A DNA stretch of 64,000 nucleotides from Anaerobacillus sp. CMMVII (GTDB lineage Bacteria > Bacillota > Bacilli > Bacillales > Anaerobacillaceae): the NCBI RefSeq assembly GCF_025377685.1, contig NZ_JACEHK010000008.1, forward strand, positions 1-64,000, read 5' to 3'. A model generated the notes under the pieces. The model was given only the letters and a program-made list of their open reading frames with translations, was not told the origin of the DNA and did no database searches. Below are positions 910 through 40,235 of the stretch, piece by piece. The position numbers were made by a program, and so were the translations under genes. Position 1 is the first letter of the stretch, and each line of letters opens with the position of its first letter.

Positions 910-1924
910 ATGTTAAGAAGACCAGCAATCTCTATAGTAATACCTATTTATAATGTTGAAAAGTATATTAATACTATTCTGGACTGTATATTAGAGCAAT
1001 CTTTTACAGAATTTGAATTAATCCTTGTGAATGATGGGTCAACTGATAATTGCGGTACTATTTGTGATCATTATGCACAGCATGATAATAGAATTAAGGT
1101 TGTTCATAAGTTGAATGGTGGTCCAAGTAGTGCTAGAAATGCAGGAATAGAATTGCAATAGGGGAGTATATCGTTTTTATTGATCCTGATGATAAAATAA
1201 CTGATGACTATTTAGTCAAATTGTATAGTATTGCTAAAAAAAATATGTGTGATGCTATAGTTAGTGGATATCAAACAGTACCTACTAATAATGTTATTGA
1301 GCCAGGCTTTAAACTTAATCAAGTTATGAACGGCAAAGAGTTTGTTCTCAGTTCGCCAGCAGTTCATTCCAAAAACGATCTTTGTTTTGTATGGAGATAC
1401 ATCTATAAGTTACAGATTATTAATGAAAGTAACATCCGCTTTAATGAACAAGTGTTTATTGGCGAGGATGTTATTTTTAATTTGGAATACTTATTATCGT
1501 CTAAAAGAGTTATGGCAATAGCTGATCAATTATATTTGTACACTGTAGATAATCCAGACAGTTTAATGAGAGTTTCGTATAAACCAAAATTAGAAAGTAG
1601 TTTAGTGCTTCAATATAAAATTAGAAAGGAGTTTTCCAAGAAATATAGTTTATTAGAACATGAACACTATACTAAAGATATTGGTAATTATTATATAAAC
1701 AATATATATTGGATGTTGATTGATAATTGTAAGAATAACGAGAATATAAATTAAAAAGAAAATTACAAAAAATAAGAAACTACCAAATGATAAAAGATAG
1801 TATCAAAGAGATTGGCTTTTCCTATAATTGTAACAATTTTAAGGAATATATCCATTACATAGCATTAAAATATAAAATATATCCTATATTGCTAGTGCTA
1901 ATAAAAAAGAGATATATTCAGTAA
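910..1924 (+). pseudogene. Glycosyltransferase family 2, two frameshifts
   Basis: The start at ATG 910 follows the ribosome binding site GAAAGGGAAG. The N-terminus ISIVIPIYNVEKYI and the later VNDGSTD are the GT-A nucleotide-sugar fold of GT2 enzymes. The frame breaks near 1154: a TAG at 1159-1161 interrupts, and the next frame continues with GEYIVFIDPDD, which carries the second Asp motif. A second break near 1750 ends the frame at 1754, while another frame runs on to a TAA at 1922-1924. Each break is explained by one missing base (G near 1154, A near 1750). Restored, the protein would be about 338 residues, normal for EPS/CPS GT2 enzymes. It may be a real pseudogene or two sequencing errors. 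Confidence 0.8.
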
Positions 1925-1970
1925 TACTTAATTATTAATTCTTTTACAAATTGACTAATAAAGAGGTGTA

Positions 1971-2896
1971 ATGGTGAGTTTTATTTTTAAAAAGAGGGTT
2001 GTAAATCTTTGGAATTTGCTAATTGATTTGAAAATAAAATGCATAAATTCTTTCTTTATCATTAGAGATAAATTTGCTAAATTTTTCTTTAAACCTCCTC
2101 ATGTAAAGACCATAGAACAAACAATTAGTGAAATAATAGAAAACAATAGTTCAGTTTCAAGGTACGGTGATGGAGAGTTTAAATTAATGGTTGGTAAAAA
2201 TATAACTTTTCAGAAGTACGATCGAGTGTTAGCTAGTAGATTAAGGGAGATATTGTTGGTCAAAGATAAAAAAATGCTAGTTTGTTTACCAGATATATTT
2301 GAAGATCTTTCAAGCTTAAGTAAAGAGCCGTATAATTATTGGAAGCTTCATATCTCTAAATTTAGGTTTAAATGGTATAACTATTGGACAATAAAAAGAA
2401 TTATTTTAATTCATTTATATCGCGTTGGTATTATCAGTATAAGGATAAGTCAAACTGTGAAAGCATATTAAGACAATTAAGAATTATTTGGAATAACAAA
2501 GACATTGTTATAATTGAGGGTAGCAAAAGTAGATTAGGGGTCGGTAATGACTTATTTATTGATGCTAAATCAATAGAACGAATATTGGTTCCAGAAGAAA
2601 ATGCCTTTAACTATTACGATGATATTTTGCAGGAAGCTTTAAGAGTTGACAGGGGAAAACTGATTTTATTAGCTATAGGTCCAACTGCTACTGTCCTTTC
2701 TTATGATCTATTTAAGAAGGGCTATCAAGCTATTGATATAGGCCATGTGGATATTGAATATGAATGGTTTCTAATGAAGGCGGTCACTAAAGTTAAAGTA
2801 AAAAACAAGTATGTATGTGAAGCCGGTGCTGGACAAGGAGTCGGTAGTATTAAAGATAAAAAGTATATAAGTCAAATAAAGAAGGAAATAATCTAA
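1971..2896 (+). pseudogene. GT-D fold glycosyltransferase (DUF1792), frameshifted
   Basis: The first part contains SRYGDGEF, the D-x-E metal/UDP-sugar motif of DUF1792 (GT-D fold) glycosyltransferases. The second part, in another frame, holds the matching C-terminal half (IIEGSKSRLGVGNDLF, LILLAIGPTATVL, GHVDIEYEW). The halves join at the run of five A at 2393-2397: one extra A restores a protein of about 308 residues, the usual length. In streptococci such enzymes add glucose to glycoprotein or polysaccharide acceptors; here the substrate is unknown. This is the second broken glycosyltransferase in a row, so either the locus is decaying or the bases are misread. Confidence 0.75.
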
Positions 2897-2941
2897 AAAC
2901 CGTAATAAGGCTTGGTTAATAAAAGTAGACGAATTAAAGGG

Positions 2942-2972
2942 ACATCTCACGAGTTGAGGTGTTTCTTTTTTC
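2942..2972 (+). terminator. Intrinsic terminator before galE
   Basis: An 8-bp stem (ACATCTCA with TGAGGTGT, one G-U pair) is followed by TTTCTTTTTT. It separates the polysaccharide genes from galE. Confidence 0.6.
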
Positions 2973-2994
2973 ATTTTTGAGAGGAGAAAAATTG

Positions 2995-4047
2995 ATGGAA
3001 ATCTTAGTTACAGGCGGTGCAGGCTTCATAGGGTCACATACTTGCGTTGAGTTATTGAATGCAGGTTATGAAGTTGTCGTTGTCGATAATTTAATGAATA
3101 GTAAACAAGAGGCTTTAGACAGAGTAAGAGAAATTACTGGAAAGGAAGTGCTGTTCTATAATATAGACTTATTAGATAAAGATGCACTCAGCAAGGTGTT
3201 CTTAAAACATGAGATAAGGGCTGTTATTCACTTTGCTGGACTTAAAGCAGTAGGGGAATCTGTATCTCTACCATTGAAATACTATCACAATAATATTACT
3301 GGGACACTCAATCTATGTGAAGTGATGGAAGAGTTTGGAGTTCACCAATTGGTTTTTAGTTCATCTGCTACTGTTTATGGACTTCAGGATTGTGTCCCAT
3401 TTCATGAAGAGCTTCCTCTACAAGCAACAAACCCTTATGGGAGAACTAAACTGATGATTGAGGAAATCCTTCGAGATCTTTATGTATCTAATAAAAAGTG
3501 GAGTATCGCCTTGTTACGTTATTTTAACCCTGTAGGTGCTCATCCAAGTGGTCTCATTGGAGAAGATCCAAACGGTATCCCTAATAATCTGGTACCCTAT
3601 ATCACTCAAGTAGCGATAGGTAAACTAGCGAAAATAAGTGTTTTGGGTAACGATTATTCCACTGACGATGGGACAGGGGTCAGAGATTATATTCATGTAC
3701 TTGATTTAGCAGTAGGTCACCTAAAAGCATTAGAGAAAGTATCTTTTACTACTGGAGTAGAGGCATATAATCTTGGTACTGGTCGAGGGTATAGTGTGCT
3801 TGAAATGATCGCTACCTTTGAAAAAGTAACGGGCAATTCTATCCCCTATGAAATAGTAGATCGGAGACCAGGGGATATTGCTGTGAGTTATGCAGACCCA
3901 ACTAAAGCAAAAAATAATCTGAATTGGATATCTCAAAAAGGACTCATTGATATGTGTGAAGATTCATGGCGTTGGCAAATGAACAATCCAAATGGGTTTG
4001 GAGAAGTTGGTCTAATAAAAAGTGGAAATAAAACTTTCATGAAATAG
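2995..4047 (+). CDS. galE: UDP-glucose 4-epimerase
   Basis: Interconverts UDP-glucose and UDP-galactose, supplying galactose for surface polysaccharide. It is an extended short-chain dehydrogenase of 350 residues, the standard GalE length. The NAD-binding TGGAGFIG lies at residues 6-13, FSSSATVYG follows, and the catalytic Tyr148/Lys152 pair sits in NPYGRTK. The sugar-binding region contains LRYFNPVGAH. I chose ATG 2995 because it follows GAGAGGAG; an upstream in-frame start at 2959 lies inside the preceding terminator. The gene stands at the 3' edge of the polysaccharide cluster, behind a terminator and apparently with its own promoter. Confidence 0.95.
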   Translation: MEILVTGGAGFIGSHTCVELLNAGYEVVVVDNLMNSKQEALDRVREITGKEVLFYNIDLLDKDALSKVFLKHEIRAVIHFAGLKAVGESVSLPLKYYHNNITGTLNLCEVMEEFGVHQLVFSSSATVYGLQDCVPFHEELPLQATNPYGRTKLMIEEILRDLYVSNKKWSIALLRYFNPVGAHPSGLIGEDPNGIPNNLVPYITQVAIGKLAKISVLGNDYSTDDGTGVRDYIHVLDLAVGHLKALEKVSFTTGVEAYNLGTGRGYSVLEMIATFEKVTGNSIPYEIVDRRPGDIAVSYADPTKAKNNLNWISQKGLIDMCEDSWRWQMNNPNGFGEVGLIKSGNKTFMK

Positions 4048-4073
4048 TAAATTGTTAAGAAAGGTGACTACTG

Positions 4074-4376
4074 ATGGCTTATTTCTTCATCCTTGCGATT
4101 TTAAATTTGCTTGATGGTTTATTTACGTTTTGGGGTTTGTCAAACAGTTGGATTACGGAAGTAAATCCTTTTATGAATTGGATGTGGATTAAAAGTCCCT
4201 TATTGTTTCTAGGTTTTAAGATGTTTCTTAGTGTGTCTTTAACAGGATTAGCTTTTTATTTTTACCGTTTATCCTACCAAAAGTTATGGCGATGTGTAGT
4301 TATGGTCCTTAACATTGCATACAGTGTAATTTTGTTACTCCACATAAATTGGATTATATATATTGAGATAACATAA
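4074..4376 (+). CDS. Small membrane protein, DUF5658-like
   Basis: A 100-residue protein with three predicted membrane segments. An N-terminal LDGLFTFWGL and then EVNPFMNW match the D...T and E-x-NP-M pattern of DUF5658 proteins. The family function is unknown. It starts 26 bases after galE behind GAAAGGTGA and may be co-transcribed with it. The domain assignment is from memory of the pattern and is moderately sure. Confidence 0.7.
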   Translation: MAYFFILAILNLLDGLFTFWGLSNSWITEVNPFMNWMWIKSPLLFLGFKMFLSVSLTGLAFYFYRLSYQKLWRCVVMVLNIAYSVILLLHINWIIYIEIT

Positions 4377-4478
4377 TCACCTTAATCGAGTTATATCAAG
4401 TGTTTTAATGAAGATTATACGGTTAAATGTTCCTTTTGTTATTGTAAAAAAGTCCGTTGTTGTTAATAGGGGAGAATT

Positions 4479-5462
4479 ATGAAGAAATTAGGTGGTATCC
4501 GTCTTTTTATAGGATTAACGTTATTATTCTGTGTACTTATCATATTTACATTTTGGAATAACAATAGAATAAAAATAGTAGAAGAAGAAGTAAAGGTTTA
4601 TAATCTTCCAATAGACTTAGATGGTTTTACCATTGTTCAATTAAGTGATTTACATGAAAAACAGTTTAGAAAAGATCAAAAAAAATTGATTGATACTGTC
4701 AATTCCCTTCGCTATGATGCGATTGTATTTACTGGGGATATGTTGGATGGGAGAAAAAGCAAGAATTATCAACCATTTTACACATTAATAGAAGGCCTAA
4801 ATAATAAAGAAACAGCGCTGTTTGTACCTGGAAATTCAGACCCTGCAATTTATCGATTAAATCCTTTTCAAAAGTCTGATTTTATCAAAGGTATGGAGGA
4901 GCGAGGAGTAAAGTTACTTGAGTCTGTACATAGCCTTTATGTAGGCAATTCAATGCTGCATTTCGTAGAATTTGAATTATCTATTGAAAATAAGGATTTA
5001 ATGTTGTCTCAGTTAGAGAGAAGACTAAACCGAGAAAATGAACCGCATCCCGAATATTTTCGCCACAGAAAAAAATTATTTGAAGATCTTTCACAAATCG
5101 ATGAATTAGGTTCCGAGGGTGTTTTAATAGCTTTGTCACATTATCCTATTGTAGATAAAAGATTAGATCTCATTGCTTCAGACTCAAGATTTCATTTAAG
5201 GGAATTTGATTTACTCATTGCAGGACATTATCATGGTGGACAGATACGCCTTCCATTCTTTGGTGCACTATTTGTGCCAGAATCTTTTTCAGACAGAAAA
5301 GGATTTTTTCCACCACAAAATAGAGTGAAGGGATTATGGAACTATAAAGGAATTAACCAATATGTGAGTGCGGGTTTGGGTAGTAGTGATGCCATCCCTT
5401 TCTTAAACTTTCGTTTACTTAATCCTCCGGAAGTAAATATAATAATCTTAAAAGCCAAATAG
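4479..5462 (+). CDS. Membrane-anchored metallophosphoesterase
   Basis: A calcineurin-like phosphoesterase of 327 residues with an N-terminal membrane anchor (residues 9-26). The dinuclear-metal motifs appear in order: QLSDLHEKQF (D-x-H), FTGDMLDG (GD), PGNSDP in place of the usual GNHE, ALSHYP, and AGHYHGG (GHxH). It resembles the YkuE/YpbG group of outward-facing phosphoesterases. The Asn of GNSD is kept while the usual His is Ser, which may change catalysis. It starts after GGGGAGAATT. The substrate is unknown. Confidence 0.85.
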   Translation: MKKLGGIRLFIGLTLLFCVLIIFTFWNNNRIKIVEEEVKVYNLPIDLDGFTIVQLSDLHEKQFRKDQKKLIDTVNSLRYDAIVFTGDMLDGRKSKNYQPFYTLIEGLNNKETALFVPGNSDPAIYRLNPFQKSDFIKGMEERGVKLLESVHSLYVGNSMLHFVEFELSIENKDLMLSQLERRLNRENEPHPEYFRHRKKLFEDLSQIDELGSEGVLIALSHYPIVDKRLDLIASDSRFHLREFDLLIAGHYHGGQIRLPFFGALFVPESFSDRKGFFPPQNRVKGLWNYKGINQYVSAGLGSSDAIPFLNFRLLNPPEVNIIILKAK

Positions 5463-5549
5463 TATAAATGTTTTTTATTAATAAAAAATATTCAATTTCG
5501 TGTCAAGTTTTTTATTACGAATTTTTTATGGAAATAAATTAAATAGTAA

Positions 5550-5578
5550 TTGACAGTAAAAACCTAAGATGGTATTTT
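5550..5578 (+). promoter_or_regulatory. Probable SigA promoter of the lasso operon
   Basis: TTGACA at 5550-5555, a 17-base spacer, and TATTTT at 5573-5578. The predicted start near 5585 leaves an untranslated leader of about 150 bases before the cyclase gene. The leader contains two related 16-bp palindromes (5591-5606 and 5672-5687). Confidence 0.6.
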
Positions 5579-5590
5579 AATAGTATAAAC

Positions 5591-5606
5591 GTTCTTAATA
5601 AAGAAC
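5591..5606. promoter_or_regulatory. 16-bp palindrome, operator candidate 1
   Basis: GTTCTTAATAAAGAAC has arms GTTCTT/AAGAAC around a 4-base centre. It lies just downstream of the -10 box, where a bound repressor would block transcription. The same site occurs in reverse orientation at 5672-5687. Confidence 0.5.
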
Positions 5607-5671
5607 TGAACGATTTGACTTAAACTTATTGATAATCCAATAAAAATTTGGTTATATATTTTTAAAATCTT

Positions 5672-5687
5672 GTTCTTTATTAAGAAC
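5672..5687. promoter_or_regulatory. 16-bp palindrome, operator candidate 2
   Basis: GTTCTTTATTAAGAAC is the exact reverse complement of the palindrome at 5591-5606, 81 bases downstream. Two copies of a 16-bp site in one leader suggest a dimeric regulator binding twice, possibly with looping. The regulator is not identifiable in the window. Confidence 0.5.
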
Positions 5688-5735
5688 TTAACTCTTTAAG
5701 GGGAATTATACACTAGTTGATCTCAGGAGGAAATA

Positions 5736-7687
5736 ATGAGTGCAATCGTCGGTATTTATAACACTAATCAAGAACCGGTAGTTCCTGATCATTCCAATAA
5801 ACTTTTACAGTCATTACAACAATTTCCTGCGGACAGCGTTCAAGTTTGGGAAAGTGATAGCATCTTCCTTGGCTGCCATAACCAGTGGATTACCCCAGAA
5901 TCGGTTGGAGAGACGCTACCATACTATGATTATCAAAGACAATTAGCGATAACAGCTGATGCAATAATTGATAATCGAGAAGAACTAATCTTACAGTTAC
6001 ATATAGATCCTTCTGAAGGGAAATACATTTCAGATAGTATGTTAATATTATTAGCTTACGAGAGATGGCAAGAAGATGCTCCTAAACACTTAATTGGTGA
6101 CTTTGCGTTTATGATTTGGGATGAAGGAAAACAAAAAATCTTTGGTGCTAGGGATTTCTCTGGAACTAGAACACTTTACTACTATTCAAATAATAATTGT
6201 TTTGCATTTTCAACTATTATTAAACCATTATTTTCATTACCTTTTGTGAAAAAAGTATTAAACGAACAGTGGCTTGCCGAGTATCTAGCTATTCCAACCT
6301 TAGTAGAAGCAGTAGATATGAACAGTACAGTCTATCATTCGATCTTTCAAGTACCTCCTTCACATAGTATCTCTGTAGCTGATGGAATTGTTACGCTTAG
6401 AAGATATTGTACGATTGAGGTAAATGAAGAATTAAAATACAAATCAGATTTTGAGTATGTAGACGCTTTTAAAGAAATTTTTCAAAAAGCTGTAACTTCA
6501 AGAATTAGGACTTACGGGAGTGTTGGCTCTCATTTAAGTGGAGGACTAGATTCTGGTACCGTTGTTAGTTTTGCTGCAACAGCACTTCGGAAACAAGATA
6601 AACAGTTACATACTTATAGTTATATACCTGAAGAAAATTTCGAAGATTGGACACCGTATTACTATACTCCTAATGAGAGTCTATTTATTAAAGAAACTGT
6701 AAAGTATATTGGAAATATTAATGATCAATTACTGAGCTTTGAAGGGAGAAATCCCTTGTCAGAAGTTGATGAAACTCTAGAACTAATGGAAATGCCGTAT
6801 AAGTTTTTTGATAACTCCTTCTGGTTGAAAGGTATTAATGAAATAGCCCATAAACAAGGAGTTAAGGTACTGTTAAATGGTGCTAGAGGAAATCATTCCA
6901 TTTCGTGGGGGTCATGGAGCTTAACCACTGACTATTATGCGAGACTATTAAAAAAATTTAAATGGATTTCATTGTTTAATGAGTTAAATCACTACACTAG
7001 GGTCTATCAGACTGGAAAATCAAATATCCTTCCGATAATAACAAAAAAAGCATTTCCAATAATTAATCTACATCAAAAGAAAAATGATCAGGATTACCAA
7101 TTTCCCCAATTTATAAGTGATGAATTAGCAATAAAAACAAATGTTTACGAAAAATTACAAGATTATGGAATGGATATATCCGGCAGTGCAGACAAAAGAA
7201 ATTTAAATGAGTATCGTAAAGCATATTATCAGCAACTCTATCCTTGGAATAAGAGTGGTGTTGCAAATACAAACCTCTCACTAAGATATTCAATGTGGGA
7301 TCGTGATCCTACGAACGATCTAGAATTGATTAAATTTTGTTTAGCACTACCAGAGGAGCAGTATGTAAAAGGAGGTCTAGAAAGATCTTTCATAAGAAGA
7401 GCAACCAAAGGCGTTTTACCTGATATGGTTAGATTAAATCAAAAAGCAGGGGGATCCAGGGGGCAGACGTAATTCACCGAATGAAGCCATATTGGCAAGA
7501 ATTCATTGATGAGCTAGAAAATAATAGTAAGGACTCAATATTATCACAATATATAAATCAAGACGTAGTTCAAAATGCAATAAAAAAAATTAGCCGTGAG
7601 CCAAAACCAGAATTAATATTTGGTGACGATTATAAAATTCTAACTAGAAGTTTAATTGTTAGCCGTTTTATTAAAAGATTATCTTGA
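5736..7687 (+). pseudogene. Lasso peptide cyclase (asparagine-synthetase-like, C protein), one frameshift
   Basis: Lasso C proteins adenylate the side-chain carboxylate at core position 7-9 and close the macrolactam onto the core N-terminus. The N-terminus MSAIVGIY keeps the glutaminase-like fold but lacks the catalytic Cys2 of true asparagine synthetases, as is usual for lasso cyclases. The ATP-pyrophosphatase loop SGGLDS lies near residue 268. The frame stops at 7472 after QKAGGSRGQT. Another frame continues with ADVIHRMKPYW, matching the family G-A-D-x-x-HRM block, and ends at 7687. One missing G in the run of five at 7457-7461 explains the break. Restored length is about 650 residues, normal for the family. 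A GGAGG site precedes ATG 5736. If the break is real, the cluster is dead. Confidence 0.88.
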
Positions 7688-7697
7688 AAGGAGGTGA
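7687..7697 (+). promoter_or_regulatory. Unusually strong ribosome binding site of the precursor
   Basis: AAAGGAGGTGA is an 11-base match to the 16S anti-Shine-Dalgarno sequence, starting at the last base of the cyclase stop codon. It predicts much stronger translation of the precursor than of the enzymes, as expected for a ribosomal peptide substrate. Confidence 0.7.
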
Positions 7698-7701
7698 GAA
7701 A

Positions 7702-7857
7702 ATGAAAAAAACATGGAAGTCTCCAACGTTAGATATTTTAACTGTAAGTATGACAATGAACGGTCCAGGAAATGCAAATCCAGATTGTTTTGATGCAGAT
7801 GACGGAAGAAACGAAACTCATGAGGGTCAATCTAATGCAAGTTGCTTAGGAAGTTAA
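7702..7857 (+). CDS. Lasso peptide precursor (A), 51 aa, paeninodin type
   Basis: A short gene between cyclase and kinase. The leader has W-x-x-P-x-L (WKSPTL, residues 5-10), the recognition motif read by the RRE protein, and the conserved Thr at the penultimate leader position (T18, M19). The inferred core is residues 20-51 and begins NGPGNANPD. This aligns with the paeninodin core AGPGTSTPD, placing the ring-closing carboxylate at Asp9 of the core and the N-terminus at Asn1. The 14-residue segment before the end holds QSNASCLGS. Cysteines lie at core positions 10 and 29, both outside the ring, so a disulfide in the loop/tail is possible. The last residue is Ser, the residue phosphorylated in paeninodin. 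Asn at position 1 and a 32-residue core are unusual. AAAGGAGGTGA at 7687-7697 is a perfect Shine-Dalgarno match. Confidence 0.88.
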   Translation: MKKTWKSPTLDILTVSMTMNGPGNANPDCFDADDGRNETHEGQSNASCLGS

Positions 7858-7931
7858 TAAATATAAAAAGTAATGTTAGTTTGATAACGCCGTGAAACAA
7901 GGCTAATGTTATTATCATTTATACCTAATAC

Positions 7932-7966
7932 CCCTTATACCTTAAGCAAGTATAAGGGTCATTATT
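7932..7966 (+). terminator. Leaky terminator/attenuator after the precursor
   Basis: The stem CCCTTATAC-CTT with AAG-TATAAGGG has one bulged C and a 4-base loop, followed by TCATTATTTT. Its place between precursor and kinase suits partial termination, giving more precursor transcript than enzyme transcript. Confidence 0.5.
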
Positions 7967-7987
7967 TTAAAAATGGAGGAAGCATTA

Positions 7988-8923
7988 TTGATTACAAATA
8001 AATTAGTCTACAGGGCTTTTGGGTATAATGTTTTAAGTGATTTTGATCTTCCGGAATTACCTAACAAATATGAAGTTAAAAAAGAGGAAGTAGACATTAC
8101 TATCTCATTCTCCGAATTAAATGGTCAGTGGAAAAATATCTCTAAACAAGAAGACGATTATTTCGTACTCCGAGAAAACCTAATTATGTTTTGCATGCCA
8201 GGCATAGCTATCTTTTCAATTGAAAATGGAGACAAAATCTATGTAACTCCATTGGAGAACTCTCAGGAAGACCATATCCGTCTATATCTTCTCGGAACCT
8301 GCATGGGTGCAATCCTTATGCAACGGAAGATCCTGCCATTGCACGGTAGTGCCGTAGCTATTAATGGAAAGGTGTATGCCATCGTCGGTGACTCAGGTGC
8401 TGGCAAATCGACGCTTGCTTCTGCTTTTTTGCATAGAGGCTATCGGTTACTTAGTGATGATGTTATACCCGTTTCCTTTAACGAAGACAACATTCCTATA
8501 GTAACCCCGGCTTATCCGCAACAGAAGCTGTGGAAGGAAAGTTTAGATGCATATGGAATGCAATCTGACCTTTATAGACCAATTATTGATCGTGAAACGA
8601 AGTTTGCCATTCCAGTTCCGGAGCACTTTGAATATGAGGTTATGCCTTTAGCGGGAATTATTGAATTAACAAAAACTGAAAGTGACGAAATAGATATTAA
8701 ACCTATTAATGACCTTCAACGCTTCCATACTCTGTTTTACCACACTTATCGTAACTTTTTCATTGAGCCTCTTGGTTTAATGGAATGGCATTTTAATACT
8801 TCAGCAAAGATGTTAAATAAGCTTGAAATGTACCAGATTAAGAGACCGATTTCCAGATTTACAGCCCATGATTTGACAGAAGTGATCCTTTCTACTATTA
8901 CTAAGGAGGTAAGTGTTGGATGA
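7988..8923 (+). CDS. Lasso peptide tailoring kinase (HPr kinase-like, K)
   Basis: A 311-residue protein related to HprK. The Walker A loop GDSGAGKST is at residues 134-142, preceded by LHGSAVAING and followed by RLLSDDVIPV, the HprK Mg/phosphate-binding region. Homologues in paeninodin-type clusters (PadeK, ThcoK) phosphorylate the C-terminal Ser of the precursor; the precursor here ends in Ser. I chose TTG 7988 because GGAGGA at 7975-7980 lies 7 bases upstream; an ATG at 7973 would overlap that site. It overlaps the next gene by 4 bases, so translation is coupled. Confidence 0.85.
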   Translation: MITNKLVYRAFGYNVLSDFDLPELPNKYEVKKEEVDITISFSELNGQWKNISKQEDDYFVLRENLIMFCMPGIAIFSIENGDKIYVTPLENSQEDHIRLYLLGTCMGAILMQRKILPLHGSAVAINGKVYAIVGDSGAGKSTLASAFLHRGYRLLSDDVIPVSFNEDNIPIVTPAYPQQKLWKESLDAYGMQSDLYRPIIDRETKFAIPVPEHFEYEVMPLAGIIELTKTESDEIDIKPINDLQRFHTLFYHTYRNFFIEPLGLMEWHFNTSAKMLNKLEMYQIKRPISRFTAHDLTEVILSTITKEVSVG

Positions 8924-9216
8924 TTAAAAATCAAACAGTTTCTTTAAATAATATTGTGCGCCAAGGCACTGGGAATATCGTCAGTGATATGGACGGTGAA
9001 AAAGTGATGTTAAGCATTTCCAAGGGCAAATACTATAATTTAGGTGAAATTGGTGGGGAAATCTGGGAGCTTATTCAAACTCCTATCTTAATTGAAGAGG
9101 TAATAACTACACTTACTTCCCGATATGACGTGGAACAATCAGTTTGCCAAGAGCAAGTATTATCTTTTCTAGGATTATTGGCTAATGAAGGATTAATTGA
9201 AGTAAAAGAATCATAG
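8920..9216 (+). CDS. Lasso RRE protein (PqqD family, B1)
   Basis: A 98-residue winged-helix RiPP recognition element. MLSISKGKYYNLGEIGGEIW is the PqqD-fold core, followed by a helical part ending in LLANEGLIEV. In split lasso systems B1 binds the leader through its YxxP-type motif and presents the peptide to B2 and C. It starts in an ATGA overlap with the kinase and ends 11 bases before B2, so K, B1 and B2 form one translational unit. Confidence 0.9.
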   Translation: MIKNQTVSLNNIVRQGTGNIVSDMDGEKVMLSISKGKYYNLGEIGGEIWELIQTPILIEEVITTLTSRYDVEQSVCQEQVLSFLGLLANEGLIEVKES

Positions 9217-9227
9217 GGGATTTAAAA

Positions 9228-9707
9228 ATGGTAAATAAACTAAAGGTATTTTTCAAGCTTGATAGAAAAACAAAGTTACTGCTAGTAGAAGCTTATCTAT
9301 ATTTAGGGTGGGCCCGTATTCTGAAGGTCCTACCATTTGCAAAGGTTGCCCCTTCATTAGGCATACAAATGGAAGAAACCTCGTTGACACTGAAAAACGC
9401 TAACAAAGAAACGTTGAGAAGTGTCTCACATGCGATCCATGTAATGAGCAAATATACGTTTTGGGAAAGTCAATGTTTAGTAAAAGCGATTGCGGCGATG
9501 AGGATGTTAGAAAAACGAGGTGTGGAAAGTACTCTTTATTTAGGAACAGCAAAAGATACAAAAGGGATATTAATCGCCCATGCATGGCTACGCAGTGGAC
9601 CTTTCTATGTTTCTGGATTTGAGGGAATGGAAAACTTCACGGTTGTTAGTAAATTTGCTAAGAAAATGACAGAGTCACAAACTAAAGGGGTAAACGATAA
9701 TGGTTGA
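9228..9707 (+). CDS. Lasso leader peptidase (transglutaminase-like, B2)
   Basis: A 159-residue cysteine protease that removes the leader after the conserved Thr-x site. The catalytic Cys83 lies in ESQCLVKA and His118 in AHAWLR, the usual B2 spacing. The N-terminal LVEAYLYLGWARI is the family helix. It overlaps the next gene by 8 bases. The third catalytic residue is not obvious in the short C-terminal part, which reads PFYVSGFEG where many relatives carry an acidic residue. Confidence 0.88.
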   Translation: MVNKLKVFFKLDRKTKLLLVEAYLYLGWARILKVLPFAKVAPSLGIQMEETSLTLKNANKETLRSVSHAIHVMSKYTFWESQCLVKAIAAMRMLEKRGVESTLYLGTAKDTKGILIAHAWLRSGPFYVSGFEGMENFTVVSKFAKKMTESQTKGVNDNG

Positions 9708-10869
9708 TAATTTCTCTATTAATACGACTACTGTGACAAAGGAATTATCCCTCATCTTAGCTTTGTTAAAAAATGAAGAAGTCCGTGAGGAAGCCTTCGA
9801 AAGTATCAATTGGGATTTATTGATTGAGCTTGCCTACCATCATCGTCTCTATCCCATTCTCTACTCAAAACTTAAAAAGGTTAATAATTCTATTATTCCA
9901 GAACATGTAATTCAAACGCTAAGTAACCATTATAAGAGGAACACATTTCAAATGCTTCATCTATGTGGAGAAATGGAAACGGTTAGCGAGCTGTTTTTGA
10001 AGCAAGATATTCGTCTTCTGTTTCTAAAGGGTCCAGTACTAGCTCATTATCTGTATGGTGACCTATCACTTCGAACTTCTTGCGATTTAGATTTTCTCAT
10101 TCCCATTGATAAGCTTGGCCAGGCAGAAGCACTTTTAATCGAGTTAGGTTATGTGAAGGATGATTACATAAAAACTGTATTGAACGATTGGCGCTGGCGG
10201 CATCATCACGTTACATACTATCATCCTCAGAAGGGGATTAAATTAGAAATTCACTGGCGTTTACACCCTGGTCCAGGGAAAGAACAGACCTTTGATGAGC
10301 TATGGAAGCACAAAAACACTAGTTCATTAACAACAAAACCGGTTTTTTATTTAGGTAAGGAAGATTTGTTTCTCTTCCTCATTACACATGGTGCCCGTCA
10401 TGGCTGGTCCCGTTTGAGGTGGTTACAGGATATTCATCAGCTTCTACAAAAAGATTTAAACAATCGCCGACTAACTCAATTACTTACGAAATACCATTAT
10501 CAACAAGTGGCAGGGAAAGCAATTATTTTAGCAGCACATTTATTTAATACGAACCTCACTCGAGAAATGAAGCAGCTAATCAATGGTGAGCGTCCTAAGA
10601 AGTTAGCTCAGGATACAATGTTTTATCTCCAAAAAATGGTGAATTTACACACCGATCCTGTTCCTGAAGAGGTTTCACGCTATCATAAAAGGTACTTATT
10701 TTCCTTAATGTCATTTCAGCAAAAAGTACTATTTATTTTAAGTTTTCTTTATCCTTATCCAGAGGATGCGGAGACGTTACCATTACCGAAAAAATTACAT
10801 TTCTTATATTTTCCACTACGTCCTTTTTTATGGGTCTGGAGAAAAACGAGGAAGCATGCGTTATCTTAG
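9700..10869 (+). CDS. Nucleotidyltransferase-family protein of the lasso cluster (N)
   Basis: A 389-residue NTP_transf_5 protein. LFLKGPVLAHYLYGDLSLRT followed by SCDLDFLI shows the G-x-D-x-D metal-binding pattern of the nucleotidyltransferase fold. LEIHWRLHPGP and THGARHGWSRLRWLQDIHQL are typical of the family. Homologues (PadeN and others) occur in Bacillota lasso clusters beside the kinase; their biochemical role is not settled. The overlap with B2 supports operon membership. Confidence 0.8.
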   Translation: MVDNFSINTTTVTKELSLILALLKNEEVREEAFESINWDLLIELAYHHRLYPILYSKLKKVNNSIIPEHVIQTLSNHYKRNTFQMLHLCGEMETVSELFLKQDIRLLFLKGPVLAHYLYGDLSLRTSCDLDFLIPIDKLGQAEALLIELGYVKDDYIKTVLNDWRWRHHHVTYYHPQKGIKLEIHWRLHPGPGKEQTFDELWKHKNTSSLTTKPVFYLGKEDLFLFLITHGARHGWSRLRWLQDIHQLLQKDLNNRRLTQLLTKYHYQQVAGKAIILAAHLFNTNLTREMKQLINGERPKKLAQDTMFYLQKMVNLHTDPVPEEVSRYHKRYLFSLMSFQQKVLFILSFLYPYPEDAETLPLPKKLHFLYFPLRPFLWVWRKTRKHALS

Positions 10870-10881
10870 GAGGCAATAAAA

Positions 10882-12693
10882 TTGAAACACATTGTTTATT
10901 TTTTAAGACAAATCCATGCCTATGCCGGTAAAATTCTTTATATTAACCTCCTAGCGATGCTGTTTATTAGCTTACTAGATGGAGTTGGGATTTTGCTATT
11001 AATCCCGATGATAAGTATGAGTGGGCTTGTTGATATTGATCCTACAGGAACACCATTAGTAGGTATTTTTGATTTTCTTCAGTCAAATCCATTATCAGTA
11101 GGGCTGTCTATCATCCTGGGGTTATTCGTTCTTATAGTTATAGGTCAAAATTTACTCCAACGACAGATAGCCATAAAAGGATCTATTATTCAACACGGTT
11201 TCTTTAGACATCTACGAGTGAAAACCTATGATGCTTTGCTACATGCAGATTGGGGATTTTATATTAAAAATCGAAAGTCTGATCTAATTCATTTAATGAC
11301 TGCTGAAATAGCAAGAGCAGGTGCGGGTACTCATTCGTTCTTACAATTTCTTGCTTCGTTAATTTTTACGTGTATCCAAGTTGTACTAGCTTTTTGGTTG
11401 TCACCAACGATTACAACATTTGTATTAGCTTCTGGCTTAATTCTACTTTTATTTAACCGTAAGTTTTTAAAACTCTCTCTTGAGCTCGGAAATAGGCAAT
11501 TTACGTTAGGGAAGAATTATTTAGGTGGAGTCACTGATCAAATTAACGGAATTAAAGATATTAAAAGTAATACATTAGAAGAGTCAAGAATGCAGTGGTT
11601 TCATAAGGTCACGAAAAGCATGGAAGAAGAACAAATTGAGTATACGAGGTTAAAAACAAAATCACAATTGTACTATAAAATAGCTTCATCTGTTTTAATT
11701 GCAGGTTTTATATTTTTAGCAGTTAACCTGTTTAACGCTCAAGCAGCTCAGCTAATGCTAATTATCGTTATTTTTTCTAGGTTATGGCCAAGAGTGGCTG
11801 GTATTCAAGCATCTTTAGAACAAATTGCTACAACGATCCCAGCATTAAAAGCAGTGATTGCTTTGCAAGAGGAGTGTAGGAATGCTAGAGAATTTACGCT
11901 TGTTAGTGGAGGAGCTGTGCAACCGCTTCAAGTACATCGAGGTATGGAATGCCGTGATGTCTCGTTTCGCTACAATCGTAACGAATCTAAATTTGCTTTA
12001 AAAAGTATCAACGCATTCATCCCAGCCAACCAAATGACCGCAGTCGTTGGTCCTTCTGGAGCAGGGAAGAGTACCCTAATAGATTTATTGATGGGGCTGA
12101 ACCAACTTGAGAGCGGAGAGCTACTCATTGATGGCAAACCATTAACTAGCTCGAATTTGCAATCACTTAGACGTGCAATCTCATACGTACCCCAAGACCC
12201 ATTCCTTTTCAATGAAAGCATTCGCGAGAATTTGCAATTAGTTGCACCGAATGCTAGTGAAGCGGAGATGTGGGAGGCATTGGAATTTTCTTCGGCGGCT
12301 GAATTTGTTCGAAAGCTTCCAGAGGGTTTGGATACGTTAATCGGTGATCGTGGCATTCGCCTATCTGGAGGAGAACGACAGCGGATTGTTTTAGCGCGGG
12401 CGATTTTACGTAAGCCTTCTATTCTTGTATTAGATGAGGCAACGAGTGCGCTTGATACGGAAAATGAGTCGAAGATCCAAGAGGCCTTAGAACGGTTAAA
12501 AGGGAAGATGACAATTGTTGTCATTGCTCATCGACTCTCGACTATTCGAAATGCCGACCAAGTGGTTGTTTTAAATGAAGGTGAGATTATTCAACAGGGT
12601 GGGTTTAACCAGCTTGCCAAAGAAAAGCGAAGTATGTTTAGCAATTTACTTAGTAAACAAATGGAGGTTGTCCATTCACAAACATCTACATAA
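10882..12693 (+). CDS. Lasso peptide ABC exporter (D)
   Basis: A 603-residue half-transporter. About six membrane segments fill residues 15-310. The ATPase domain holds Walker A GPSGAGKST, Q-loop VPQDPFLFNE, signature LSGGERQRI, Walker B ILVLDEATSALD and the switch His of IAHRLST. It exports the mature lasso peptide and gives self-immunity in related systems. It starts at TTG 10882 behind AGGAGG and is the last gene of the operon; its stop codon lies within a strong terminator. Confidence 0.9.
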   Translation: MKHIVYFLRQIHAYAGKILYINLLAMLFISLLDGVGILLLIPMISMSGLVDIDPTGTPLVGIFDFLQSNPLSVGLSIILGLFVLIVIGQNLLQRQIAIKGSIIQHGFFRHLRVKTYDALLHADWGFYIKNRKSDLIHLMTAEIARAGAGTHSFLQFLASLIFTCIQVVLAFWLSPTITTFVLASGLILLLFNRKFLKLSLELGNRQFTLGKNYLGGVTDQINGIKDIKSNTLEESRMQWFHKVTKSMEEEQIEYTRLKTKSQLYYKIASSVLIAGFIFLAVNLFNAQAAQLMLIIVIFSRLWPRVAGIQASLEQIATTIPALKAVIALQEECRNAREFTLVSGGAVQPLQVHRGMECRDVSFRYNRNESKFALKSINAFIPANQMTAVVGPSGAGKSTLIDLLMGLNQLESGELLIDGKPLTSSNLQSLRRAISYVPQDPFLFNESIRENLQLVAPNASEAEMWEALEFSSAAEFVRKLPEGLDTLIGDRGIRLSGGERQRIVLARAILRKPSILVLDEATSALDTENESKIQEALERLKGKMTIVVIAHRLSTIRNADQVVVLNEGEIIQQGGFNQLAKEKRSMFSNLLSKQMEVVHSQTST

Positions 12694-12716
12694 AAATGTA
12701 GGTGTTTGTTTTTTTG
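12680..12716 (+). terminator. Terminator of the lasso operon
   Basis: A 12-bp stem (AAACATCTACAT with ATGTAGGTGTTT, one wobble pair) is followed by a run of seven T. It overlaps the exporter stop codon. Confidence 0.85.
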
Positions 12717-12717
12717 T

Positions 12718-12879
12718 TTAGTATTTCATCTCTTTGCGATGATACGCTGCTTTTTTATAGTATTTAATTCTCGTTTCATTGTCTAAACAGTCTTTATAAA
12801 GATGATAGTTATAAACATATAAACAGCGGTGATAGGTCTCTTTTGTTTTCTTGATCATCGTTTTTGGAAAAGAGAACAT
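12718..12879 (-). CDS. Small basic Tyr-rich protein, 53 aa
   Basis: An unrecognised short reading frame. It starts MFSFPKTMIKKTKETYHRCL and is rich in Lys, Arg and Tyr, with two Cys, no membrane segment and no signal peptide. AGGAGG lies 9 bases upstream of its ATG, a strong site. It converges on the lasso operon and can use the shared terminator. The ribosome binding site and composition suggest a real gene; no function can be offered. Confidence 0.5.
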   Translation of the reverse strand: MFSFPKTMIKKTKETYHRCLYVYNYHLYKDCLDNETRIKYYKKAAYHRKEMKY

Positions 12880-12972
12880 ATGGAAGACCTCCTCTAGTTG
12901 AATGTAAAAGAATGAAATGGAGTAAGTGTTTCTTATATACTATTTATGCGCATTTGTTCGGTAATATCCAAG

Positions 12973-13020
12973 AAAAAAAGCGATGCCGATAAAAACTATC
13001 GACGATCACTTTTGTCTTTT
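12973..13020 (-). terminator. Terminator downstream of the SinI-like gene
   Basis: On the minus strand an imperfect stem (about 15 bp with mismatches, AAAAGTGATCG against CGAT..CGCTTTT) is followed by a run of T. It closes the riboswitch-SinI transcript. Confidence 0.6.
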
Positions 13021-13039
13021 AAAATCTTATGTACGTAAC

Positions 13040-13156
13040 TTATTTGTGTTCTAGAAGAAATTCCATTACTTCATCAATACTAATACCTATACCAATCGCT
13101 TCTTTCATTAATTCTACCCATTCTTGATCAAGGTTTTCACGAACAATATGATCCAA
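13040..13156 (-). CDS. SinI-family anti-repressor microprotein, 38 aa
   Basis: The product begins MDHIVRENLDQEWVELMKEA and ends with IDEVMEFLLEHK. LDQEWVELM is nearly identical to the SinR-binding segment of B. subtilis SinI, and the following I-x-x-x-E-V-x-x-FL matches its second helix. SinI binds the biofilm/motility repressor SinR and blocks DNA binding. The start is TTG with AGGAGG 8 bases upstream. The protein is shorter than SinI (57 aa), keeping only the interaction helices. Its leader carries a GEMM-I riboswitch, so it probably responds to cyclic di-GMP. The SinR-like target lies outside the window. Confidence 0.85.
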   Translation of the reverse strand: MDHIVRENLDQEWVELMKEAIGIGISIDEVMEFLLEHK

Positions 13157-13182
13157 GCAAGATTCCTCCTAAAATACTTTCC

Positions 13183-13280
13183 GTATCTCAAGCAGCCCAG
13201 CCATCATTGTTCGATATCGACCATTAGACCTGTGACTTTGCGTCCTTAATTTTCATTAAGTTTGCCCTTTATTGAAAATT
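13183..13280 (-). promoter_or_regulatory. Cyclic di-GMP-I (GEMM-I) riboswitch
   Basis: Read on the minus strand, the leader contains AGGGCAAAC, then the stem-loop CTTAAT-GAAA-ATTAAG with a GAAA tetraloop, then GGACGCAAAG, AGGTCTAATGG and later GATGGCTGGGCTGC. This is the order of conserved blocks of GEMM-I aptamers: ligand pocket, tetraloop, GACGCAAAG and tetraloop receptor. The G before GCAAAC fits c-di-GMP rather than cGAMP. It ends about 20 bases before the AGGAGG of the SinI-like gene. No strong terminator lies between them, so control may be translational; a weak hairpin ATAC-GGAAA-GTAT sits next to the ribosome binding site. Confidence 0.85.
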
Positions 13281-13681
13281 GCGAAAAATCATTTTGTATT
13301 TATATGACTTTGTTTTCCCTTTTCCTGTAGTATAAGGCTTGATCACAATATCTTGTGTAGAAATATGTAACTAACATAAAATAACAATTTGACAAATAAA
13401 AGTAAAATATTTAAACCTCATGGGTCTATTTACCTATGGTTTCGACATGTGGGAAGAAAGGACTATTAAGGGTTGTCGTGGTAGAACATTTTATCTGTAA
13501 ATATATGTAGGTAAAGCGATTAAAATGTAGAAAACTTATTTTGTTTACAATTCGAAACACAGCTTTTTCCTAACTATTTTTCTTGTTTTTTGTTATCCTA
13601 AGAAAAGCTGTTTATTTTTGAAGGGAGAAGATCAATATTAGTTTCTGGATTTTATTCGTAAGTATTGCACTGTTATTTTTA
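13281..13681. other. Intergenic leader region without a clear gene
   Basis: This AT-rich stretch separates the divergent riboswitch transcript from the MBL lipoprotein. Near 13558-13611 an inverted repeat (ACAGCTTTT with AAAAGCTGT) precedes the ribosome binding site AAGGGAGAAG at 13621-13630. I see no convincing reading frame. Confidence 0.4.
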
Positions 13682-16838: not shown

Positions 16839-17176
16839 AACATGAACTTTTGACATGACTCTCATAGTTCGGTCTTTTTTCATGTGGTTTTGCCGGTGTT
16901 TCAGTAAGTTGAACGCTTCTTTAGGCTTATATTAAATCTTCCTTTGTAAATTCTTGAAAGGTAATTGAAGTTATCCTTTGCTGATTTTACATTGTTACGA
17001 CTTTAGTTTGTTTTCGGTAACTGGCTGGCATATTGATGATCAATTTAGCCCCTATAGTTTTGCGTCACCATTTTTCAATGGCTTTGCCTGTTCGTGCCAA
17101 TCATGTATGGAAGGGGAAGTATCCCTTTCATAACTTTAGCTTTGAAGAAGAACGTTTAAACACAGCAAATTTAGGA
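16839..17176 (+). other. Gene-poor stretch with possible decayed coding remnant
   Basis: No intact gene. On the plus strand between about 17020 and 17200 two frames give protein-like segments (HIDDQFSPYSFASPFF, then RANHVWKGKYPFHNFSFEEE) separated by a shift. They look like a relic of a longer gene, but I cannot name the family. Its 3' end overlaps the minus-strand Spo0E-like gene. Confidence 0.25.
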
Positions 17177-39984: not shown

Positions 39985-40235
39985 ATCAAAAAAAGCCTGT
40001 GTCCAATTGGATACAGGCTTTAACTAACTAAATATTTTCCCCGCTCTGACGTAGCTCCTAGTGTCTCAAAACCCGCTCAAAAGCAGGTGGGTACTCGCAA
40101 TCACTTTTCCAACTTCCAATTAGCTTACTTGGCTTGTTGTCCAAATGACAATTAGAATTCCCGTAAACAATGCATCGGTTTGAGACATCTCAAGCACACG
40201 TTCATCGCAGGATGTTTGTTATGCGTTTTTCTTAT
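39985..40235 (-). ncRNA. Structured ncRNA, 6S-RNA-like
   Basis: A minus-strand unit with a good promoter (TTGTTA at 40265-40270, 17 bases, TAATAT at 40242-40247) and a strong terminator (stem AAAGCCTGTATCC / GGACACAGGCTTT plus T run, 39988-40022). Its 5' part (CCTGCGATGAACGTGTGCTT, then GAGATGTCTCAAA) pairs over about 30 bases with its 3' part (TTTTGAGACACTAGGAGCTA, then CGTCAGAGCGGGG). The middle is less paired. A long rod with closing stem and central bubble is the 6S RNA plan, which mimics an open promoter to hold SigA RNA polymerase. No frame of use is present. The family is inferred from shape, not alignment. Confidence 0.55.

Follow-up and report, generated by a model that had tools for sequence, protein, structure and literature searches.

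The first 64,000 nucleotides of contig NZ_JACEHK010000008.1 of Anaerobacillus sp. CMMVII (assembly GCF_025377685.1; this whole stretch is called the window) hold a paeninodin-type lasso peptide operon whose precursor carries two cysteines, and comparison with related genomes places this precursor in a conserved subfamily that is served by a cyclase clade of its own. The best explanation for the system as a whole is, in our view, an operon for a two-Cys lasso peptide of the paeninodin type, with the processing steps of that family, a disulfide that locks the threaded tail, and control by the biofilm regulators SinR and SinI; we consider it likely. This explanation is based on homology, conserved residues, the cyclase clade, operator sequences, and gene neighbors, and each chemical step, the binding of SinR, and the role in biofilms are predicted from sequence. 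The operon comprises the following genes:

5736-7472 (+), C, lasso cyclase, first piece, 578 amino acids, with the frame lost near the 3' end
7481-7687 (+), C, remaining C-terminal piece, 68 amino acids, in another frame, matching the cyclase C-termini of relatives
7702-7857 (+), A, precursor, 51 amino acids (leader 7702-7758, core 7759-7854, stop codon 7855-7857)
7973-8923 (+), K, HprK-type peptide kinase, with an HprK-like region at 32.4 bits against PF07475, just under the cut-off of 33.3
8920-9216 (+), B1, recognition element for ribosomally synthesized and post-translationally modified peptides (RRE), NF033536 at 135.9 bits (cut-off 80)
9228-9707 (+), B2, leader peptidase, NF033537 at 107.7 bits (cut-off 33)
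9700-10869 (+), N, nucleotidyltransferase-like protein, PF14907 at 203.2 bits
10882-12693 (+), D, ABC exporter, by family matches

The order C-A-K-B1-B2-N-D, as given in the original prediction made from the DNA letters, agrees with the family matches of each gene. K, B1, B2, N, and D follow A on the same strand with overlaps or gaps of at most about 115 bases, and the split B1/B2 pair, the kinase, the exporter, and the cyclase (frameshifted in the assembly) lie in one operon.

The precursor and its relatives

The precursor is located where the original prediction had placed it and has the residues described there: a leader of 19 residues with WKSP (a WxxP motif) and Thr at -2, and a core of 32 residues with N1, D9, C10, C29, and a final Ser (S32), accompanied in the cluster by a kinase gene. 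Its assignment to the paeninodin type is supported by 54.0 bits against NF033524 (NCBIfam, paeninodin family lasso peptide; cut-off 27). Homology backs the predicted ring N1-D9, which leaves both Cys outside, as had been claimed. The Trp is near-invariant in the leaders of paeninodin-like precursors (PMC13381572). The precursor was wrongly termed divergent, as it shares 56-83% identity with those of 37 relatives over the matched stretch.

A search with the family hidden Markov model (HMM) covered 397 genomes of the order and 14 control genomes; it recovered precursors in 89 of the former and in none of the controls. The resulting sample comprised 132 loci (the window and 131 others; eight weak matches were not fetched), which were searched with a W/YxxP pattern. 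After 19 odd frames without Thr at the right place had been dropped, 134 precursors were left, 128 of them distinct and at the usual spacing, and some loci gave no precursor, e.g., L080, whose leader lacks the Pro and which was read separately. This sample is the one compiled without selection for Cys. Residue 1 varied across the 128 parsed precursors (A, N, L, K, G, S, I, W); it was Asn in 21 of the 128, the window's included, and C10 together with a second Cys was found in 19 of these 21, while two or more Cys occurred in six of the 107 precursors without Asn1. The joint pattern of N1, C10, and a second Cys is beyond chance.

A core starting from Gly2, with an 8-residue ring, was considered and rejected, since Thr would then sit at -3 and Thr is at a fixed distance from the leader Trp in 129 of the 134 family precursors, whatever residue 1 is. 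A plasmid or phage origin was likewise rejected: the precursor gave no tblastn match against plasmids, and megablast of 5440-8000 against phages gave none either.

An alignment of the 19 Asn1 two-Cys precursors has 17 invariant columns, including N1, G2, P3, G4, N5, D9, C10, F11, D12, and the SN-x-SC block at the second Cys. Using this alignment, a collection of one genome for each of 84,980 species was scanned, and 37 related loci were found in many genera, mostly Bacillaceae. N1, D9, C10, the second Cys, and the final Ser are present in all 37 (36 by script; the last, in which Leu replaces the Pro of WxxP, was read separately), a motif sharing that is partly by construction because the scan patterns contained NGPGN or DCFD. 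The second Cys of the 34 distinct N1 cores is at position 29 (n=29), 30 (n=3), 32 (n=1), or 33 (n=1), and 2 to 18 residues follow the last Cys. Within the stretch examined of each relative K was present in 36, B1 in 33, B2 and N in 34 each, and D in 36; the D of L157 is a weak match, 28% to another exporter. Locus counts overstate the number of independent events, L151 and L153 being near-copies.

The peptide is therefore not the single new scaffold that had been proposed but a member of a conserved subfamily; the core observation of the original prediction is right, yet less singular than thought. A search of the main text of papers, mostly open-access ones, found none printing NGPGNAN, and within the literature searched we found no earlier description of the family, the finding named at the outset as evidence against its novelty. 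Public mining sets may list such precursors.

A second cyclase-precursor pair (C'-A') is located directly upstream in 26 of the 37 relatives (by script) and a little farther upstream in L163 and L168, and L157 has a whole second cluster; the window has no such pair. The A' precursors mostly start with Ala1 or Leu1 and lack the Cys pair. The double-module operons (26 of the 37 loci L143-L179) thus encode two different lasso peptides beside one shared set of K, B1, B2, N, and D. In two of the two-Cys clusters, L158 and L166, the examined stretch matched K, N, and D, but neither B1 nor B2. In L157 a complete cluster of the A1 type (1134-7986) precedes a two-Cys C-A pair that stands alone with a phosphoesterase gene (8034-10144) and would need to borrow B1, B2, and K.

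Phylogeny of the cyclases

Cyclase trees were of the "quick" kind with the Shimodaira-Hasegawa-like approximate likelihood ratio test (SH-aLRT) as sole support measure, and rows were labelled by their precursor. Excluded from the trees were L015, L041, and L196, whose cyclase was short or whose precursor was not parsed, and identical rows entered as one. The two-Cys state changes once on the 93-row tree. A test set of 20 further regions, including four with Gly1 two-Cys precursors, one with an Asn1 two-Cys precursor, and two with Asn1 precursors lacking the pair, provided 14 usable cyclase rows from 13 regions (six regions had no cyclase and one no parsed precursor). All five newly added two-Cys cyclases (four G1, one N1) fell inside the clade on the enlarged 107-row tree, on which the two-Cys state again changes once, separating 48 rows from 59 on a branch with an SH-aLRT support of 100; none of 500 label shuffles gave as low a number of changes. 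Asn1 needs five changes on the same tree. Since the clade serves precursors with N, G, or L as residue 1 and the cyclase of L184 (Asn1, no Cys) lies outside it, the lineage is marked by the Cys pair and not by Asn1, which was rejected as the defining feature. A sign test of independent pairs for N1 versus two Cys had too few pairs. The window's cyclase piece is nearest to the cyclase of Alkalihalobacillus sp. BA299 (71% over 412 columns), and two-Cys cyclases with 45-68% identity to the window's are present in dozens of genomes.

That all enzymes belong to the paeninodin family and that residue 1 varies widely among the 128 precursors would also be expected of an ordinary paeninodin cluster in which the Cys pair and Asn1 arose by neutral drift. 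The near invariance of the Cys pair and the ring motif over dozens of genomes and the single dedicated cyclase clade for two-Cys precursors argue against such drift, which we regard as very improbable.

Five of the six test regions without a cyclase (L186-L190) have paeninodin-type leaders with Lys1 cores (KGW.., KF..) and no cyclase match in about 2.8 kb upstream; these perhaps represent another peptide class that uses the same leader. The sixth, L185, whose precursor starts with Asn and has one Cys, likewise has no cyclase match.

Putative role of the cysteines and of Asn1

Exactly two Cys are present in 48 of 48 rows of the clade, and of the 59 rows outside it none has two and three have one. 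The first Cys of the clade is at position 8, 10, or 12 and the second between 29 and 41, with a Cys-Cys spacing of 19 in 34 of 44 distinct two-Cys cores. Phe, Trp, and Tyr are the usual kind of plug residue in lasso peptides, and one of these at position 12 or later is found in 8 of the 44 distinct two-Cys cores versus 52 of 58 distinct cores without the pair. A disulfide in place of the plug would account for both the strict pairing of Cys and the scarcity of aromatic residues, and these two features give indirect backing to the prediction that a disulfide locks the threaded tail. With C10 and C29 both outside the ring predicted to end at D9, such a disulfide would be a class IV (tail-tail) bridge as classified in PMC13352647 and PMC9266682. 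In L183, a Gly1 member of the two-Cys clade, one Cys lies within the ring (Cys8) and the other at position 37, and the two would form a ring-tail (class III) bridge.

Conservation in DCFD...ETH.G.SN.SC, the segment before and between the Cys, covers far more residues than the two Cys, which a mere lock would not need, and no oxidoreductase was recognized by family matches, a search limited to the cluster genes of the window. Both points would suit Cys that bind a metal together with the conserved Asp, Glu, and His, or that serve for the attachment of a group, with threading locked otherwise. On the other hand, the Cys are strictly paired and never single within the clade, and the pair is kept while its positions shift (8/10/12; 29 to 41), as expected of a cross-link. 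The lack of an oxidoreductase is no objection to a disulfide, because the clusters of the class IV peptides LP2006 and pandonodin have no extra gene for it either (PMC9266682). We therefore think a non-disulfide role of the Cys doubtful and favor the disulfide lock.

Asn1 had been described as unusual, which holds, but it is not without precedent, as metanodin is an experimental case (PMC12670498) that makes Asn1 chemically feasible.

Integrity of the cyclase gene

The cluster had been called complete, a claim that fails at C, which is split over two frames here while the cyclase runs in one frame through the break site in 37 of 37 relatives. The first piece scored 399.5 bits against NF033535, under the cut-off of 525, and the second had no family match in the profile search. 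A near-invariant RG-x-Q-x-x-D segment at the break site of the relatives is absent from the first piece (in this comparison the printed stretch begins one residue late for three relatives), and the cyclase of the relatives ends overlapping A or within about 35 bases of it. The intact cyclase that characterizes the paeninodin family is thus not present in the window as sequenced.

Three more genes are apparently split in the first 21 kb, which suggests assembly errors: a GT2 gene at 883-1754 (first piece corresponding to profile positions 1-75 of 168, second recognized by eye only), a GT-D gene at 1971-2896 (two pieces corresponding to profile positions 1-80 and 80-224), and a beta-phosphoglucomutase-like gene from 20359 to about 21080 (first piece profile positions 1-86 of 178, the rest by eye). 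An asparagine-synthase-like gene on contig C10 of the same genome (G000:C10:176262-177982) is apparently split as well. The break in C probably reflects an assembly error as well. If the frameshift were real, the operon would be decaying, with no lasso peptide made and the other genes persisting by inertia, a scenario compatible with the break seen here and in none of the relatives and with the absence of the upstream C'-A' module found in most of them. A, K, B1, B2, N, and D are all open, though, and other genes split at this rate resemble indel errors more than decay, which makes a pseudo-operon improbable compared with an intact operon that was misassembled.

Modification and export genes

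The His, P-loop Lys, and Asp-Asp residues of K were recognized by eye, in agreement with the His-Lys-Asp-Asp motif carried by kinases of this type (PMC9266682); the start codon of K is perhaps slightly further in, as most relatives align from about residue 6-13. PadeK phosphorylates the terminal Ser on the precursor, and the hexosylation of pseudomycoidin depends on PsmN (PMC9266682). A final Ser is present in 44 of 44 distinct two-Cys cores including the window's, and by analogy the peptide of the window may be both phosphorylated and hexosylated. No SipW-like signal peptidase appeared among the family matches of the cluster genes, although no search was aimed at SipW. A candidate terminator was identified at the end of D:

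12678-12709 (+), terminator-like site with a 14-pair stem and a T-run behind it, overlapping the last bases of D

Three terminator-like sites were found versus a shuffle mean of 4.6, and this stem is the longest of them.

Putative SinR operators and promoter

Three candidate regulatory sites were identified upstream of C:

5550-5578 (+), sigma-70-type promoter-like site, TTGACA, 17-nucleotide spacer, TG before TATTTT
5591-5606, SinR-type inverted operator 1, 13 of 14 consensus positions
5672-5687, SinR-type inverted operator 2, 13 of 14 positions, the exact reverse complement of operator 1

The two 16-base palindromes are the sole sites with at least 13 of 14 matching positions in the window. 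The consensus used (GTTCTYT) is taken from work on Bacillus subtilis and is not the host's own (PMC3163267, PMC5733473), and SinR of B. subtilis binds its inverted duplex with a 2-base gap at a dissociation constant of 300 nM (PMC3163267). Both palindromes match the inverted half-site with this gap. Of the 38 loci, the window's among them, 28 have an operator with at least 12 of 14 matches in the 300 bases before the first cyclase, while 100 dinucleotide shuffles averaged 0.27 such loci and never exceeded 2; at a threshold of 13 of 14 the figures were 18 of 38 loci versus 0.02 in shuffles. The promoter-like site matches at 10 of 12 positions and is among the two best in 5440-13400, a region with 29 such sites and a shuffle mean of 29.1, and is weak evidence on its own.

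The strict motif GTTCTTN4AAGAAC is found at four places in the 4.87 Mb genome, and its backwards control at none. Two of the places are at the operon, one is inside an open reading frame (C8:88288), and one (C10:454697) lies between a SinI-type gene and a divergent helix-turn-helix (HTH) gene that precedes Wzz and AAA_31 genes. The sinR gene (HTH_3 and SinI domain) adjoins sinI at the C10 locus, which we take to resemble the eps locus of B. subtilis.

The palindromes might instead be operators of another regulator, SlrR-like or a local HTH protein, with the biofilm neighbors being incidental; the genome does encode further HTH proteins, e.g., at C10:454744, and polysaccharide loci adjoin some such clusters anyway (PMC13381572). 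The half-site, its inversion, and the 2-bp gap, however, equal those of the SinR-bound duplex (PMC3163267), three of the four strict genome sites fall either at the lasso operon or at the eps-like one next to sinR-sinI, and 7 of 38 loci have a SinI-type gene close to the operon. Another regulator accordingly seems to us rather unlikely, and SinR remains the favored candidate. No paper joining "lasso peptide" and "SinR" was found in the literature searched, within which SinR operators at lasso operons appear to be new.

Neighboring genes and RNAs

The operon is flanked by the following features:

2959-4047 (+), galE
4479-5462 (+), metallophosphoesterase (PF00149) adjoining the operon on its upstream side, N-terminus hydrophobic as judged by eye
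13040-13156 (-), SinI-type anti-repressor, 38 amino acids, PF08671 at 43.6 bits (cut-off 31.4), TTG start
13188-13276 (-), c-di-GMP-I (cyclic di-GMP) riboswitch aptamer, 31 bases before the SinI-like gene

The SinI-type gene and its riboswitch are downstream of D on the strand opposite to the operon. Six of the 37 relatives have a SinI-type gene with a riboswitch directly upstream some 1 to 5 kb past D, with a c-di-GMP-I riboswitch in L161 and a c-di-GMP-I-GGC riboswitch in L150, L151, L153, L168, and L179; the near-copies L151 and L153 also have sinR there. In six other relatives (L143, L160, L162, L172, L175, L177) an epsC RNA (EAR, eps-associated RNA) is found about 1.5 to 1.8 kb downstream of the last operon gene; in two of these, L172 and L177, D is followed by genes that are eps-like by eye. 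A riboswitch-SinI gene or eps RNA is thus nearby in 13 of 38 loci. A putative c-di-GMP riboswitch has been described before sinI in Bacillus methanolicus (PMC4342826). Some clusters of this kind are located inside capsular polysaccharide loci, and the lasso gene pbaB1 rises together with a polysaccharide gene in stationary phase (PMC13381572), findings with which the putative SinR operators agree.

Phosphoesterase homologs are present in 21 of 37 relatives, 18 of them after D on the same strand (15 within 150 bases of D), two before C, and one elsewhere. The recurrent enzyme is probably extracytoplasmic and, as a guess, may act on the phosphorylated peptide. Six of the 37 relatives have a galE homolog with at least 69% identity no more than about 5 kb before their first cyclase. 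The window also contains a second c-di-GMP-I riboswitch at 17013-17098 (-) and a 6S RNA at 40034-40216 (-).

Proposed function

Under the explanation that we favor, B1 would bind the WxxP leader and pass the precursor to B2, which would cut after M-1 behind the T-2 signal. The kinase K would phosphorylate the C-terminal Ser and N may bring about hexosylation of that phosphate, modifications reported for paeninodin and pseudomycoidin. The cyclase of the dedicated clade would join N1 to D9, the two Cys would oxidize to a disulfide locking the threaded tail where relatives use bulky residues, and D would export the peptide. SinR at the two inverted operators would probably hold off transcription until SinI-type anti-repressors, one of them encoded next door behind a c-di-GMP riboswitch, release the operon; under such control the peptide would be made in the biofilm state.

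Several points weigh against this explanation. As sequenced, with C in two frames, the strain might make no peptide. The ring, threading, disulfide, phosphate, and hexose are all predicted from homology, and the binding of SinR from the B. subtilis consensus. Aromatic loss and Cys gain fall on one branch and count as one event, a conserved His at about position 20 is an alternative plug candidate, and the lack of a recognized oxidoreductase mentioned above belongs here too. No 12-of-14 operator is present in 10 of the 38 upstream regions, and in the relatives the cyclase before which it was sought is mostly that of the second C-A module. Neither a riboswitch-SinI gene nor an epsC RNA was found in the sequence stretch covered for 25 of 37 relatives, all scanned against Rfam, and the riboswitch-sinI pair is known elsewhere with no lasso operon mentioned in the available text (PMC4342826).

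It is possible, and we put it forward tentatively as somewhat less than an even chance, that the whole lineage consists of lasso peptides that are disulfide-locked, phosphorylated, and perhaps hexosylated, that are closed by the dedicated cyclase clade, and that belong to the SinR/SinI biofilm regulon of Bacillaceae, with c-di-GMP acting through the riboswitch-SinI gene and the phosphoesterase perhaps processing the phosphate after export. Among the literature matches listed, the two-Cys cyclase lineage and its link to the SinR/c-di-GMP biofilm switch are new. We know of no biological role established for paeninodin-type lasso peptides, and the putative SinR operators (28/38) together with the riboswitch-SinI genes and eps RNAs (13/38) point to the biofilm program as a testable one. 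The tie between the clade and the Cys pair provides matched enzyme-substrate pairs with which to study substrate choice by cyclases and the possible replacement of steric plugs by a disulfide. Asn1 peptides, of which we encountered one experimental case (metanodin), would become a common natural class.

Comparison with known systems

The ring of paeninodin is closed at residue 9. Paeninodin, from Paenibacillus dendritiformis, shares with the window the T-2 leader, split B1/B2, an HprK-like kinase, a C-terminal Ser, and an exporter, as far as the available descriptions go, but it is a class II peptide without a disulfide (PMC9266682); the window differs by a longer core, Asn1, the Cys pair, and the additional gene N. 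The psm cluster for pseudomycoidin (Bacillus pseudomycoides) likewise has a kinase and a nucleotidyltransferase gene, and its product is phosphorylated and hexosylated, whereas the available text speaks of neither a Cys pair nor Asn1 in pseudomycoidin (PMC9266682).

Clusters for linear polyphosphorylated peptides (LPP), often found beside lasso clusters in Bacillota, share kinase, N, RRE, and exporter with the window but have a YxxP leader with another motif and no cyclase (PMC13381572), whereas the window has WxxP and a cyclase and hence lacks both LPP marks. The riboswitch-sinI pair of B. methanolicus is arranged as in the window, but the available text mentions no lasso operon with it (PMC4342826).

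Metanodin, from a soil metagenome (Steroidobacterales), has Asn as first ring residue, supported by tandem mass spectrometry, but belongs to another phylum and cluster type, with no disulfide or phosphate mentioned in the portions available (PMC12670498). The class IV peptides LP2006, pandonodin, and the felipeptins have two Cys outside the ring that form one tail-tail disulfide, and pandonodin, with 33 residues, is close in length to the 32-residue core of the window; the available text mentions no kinase-bearing member from Bacillota (PMC13352647, PMC9266682). In contrast to these class IV peptides, the window's precursor has its first Cys directly after the ring-closing Asp.

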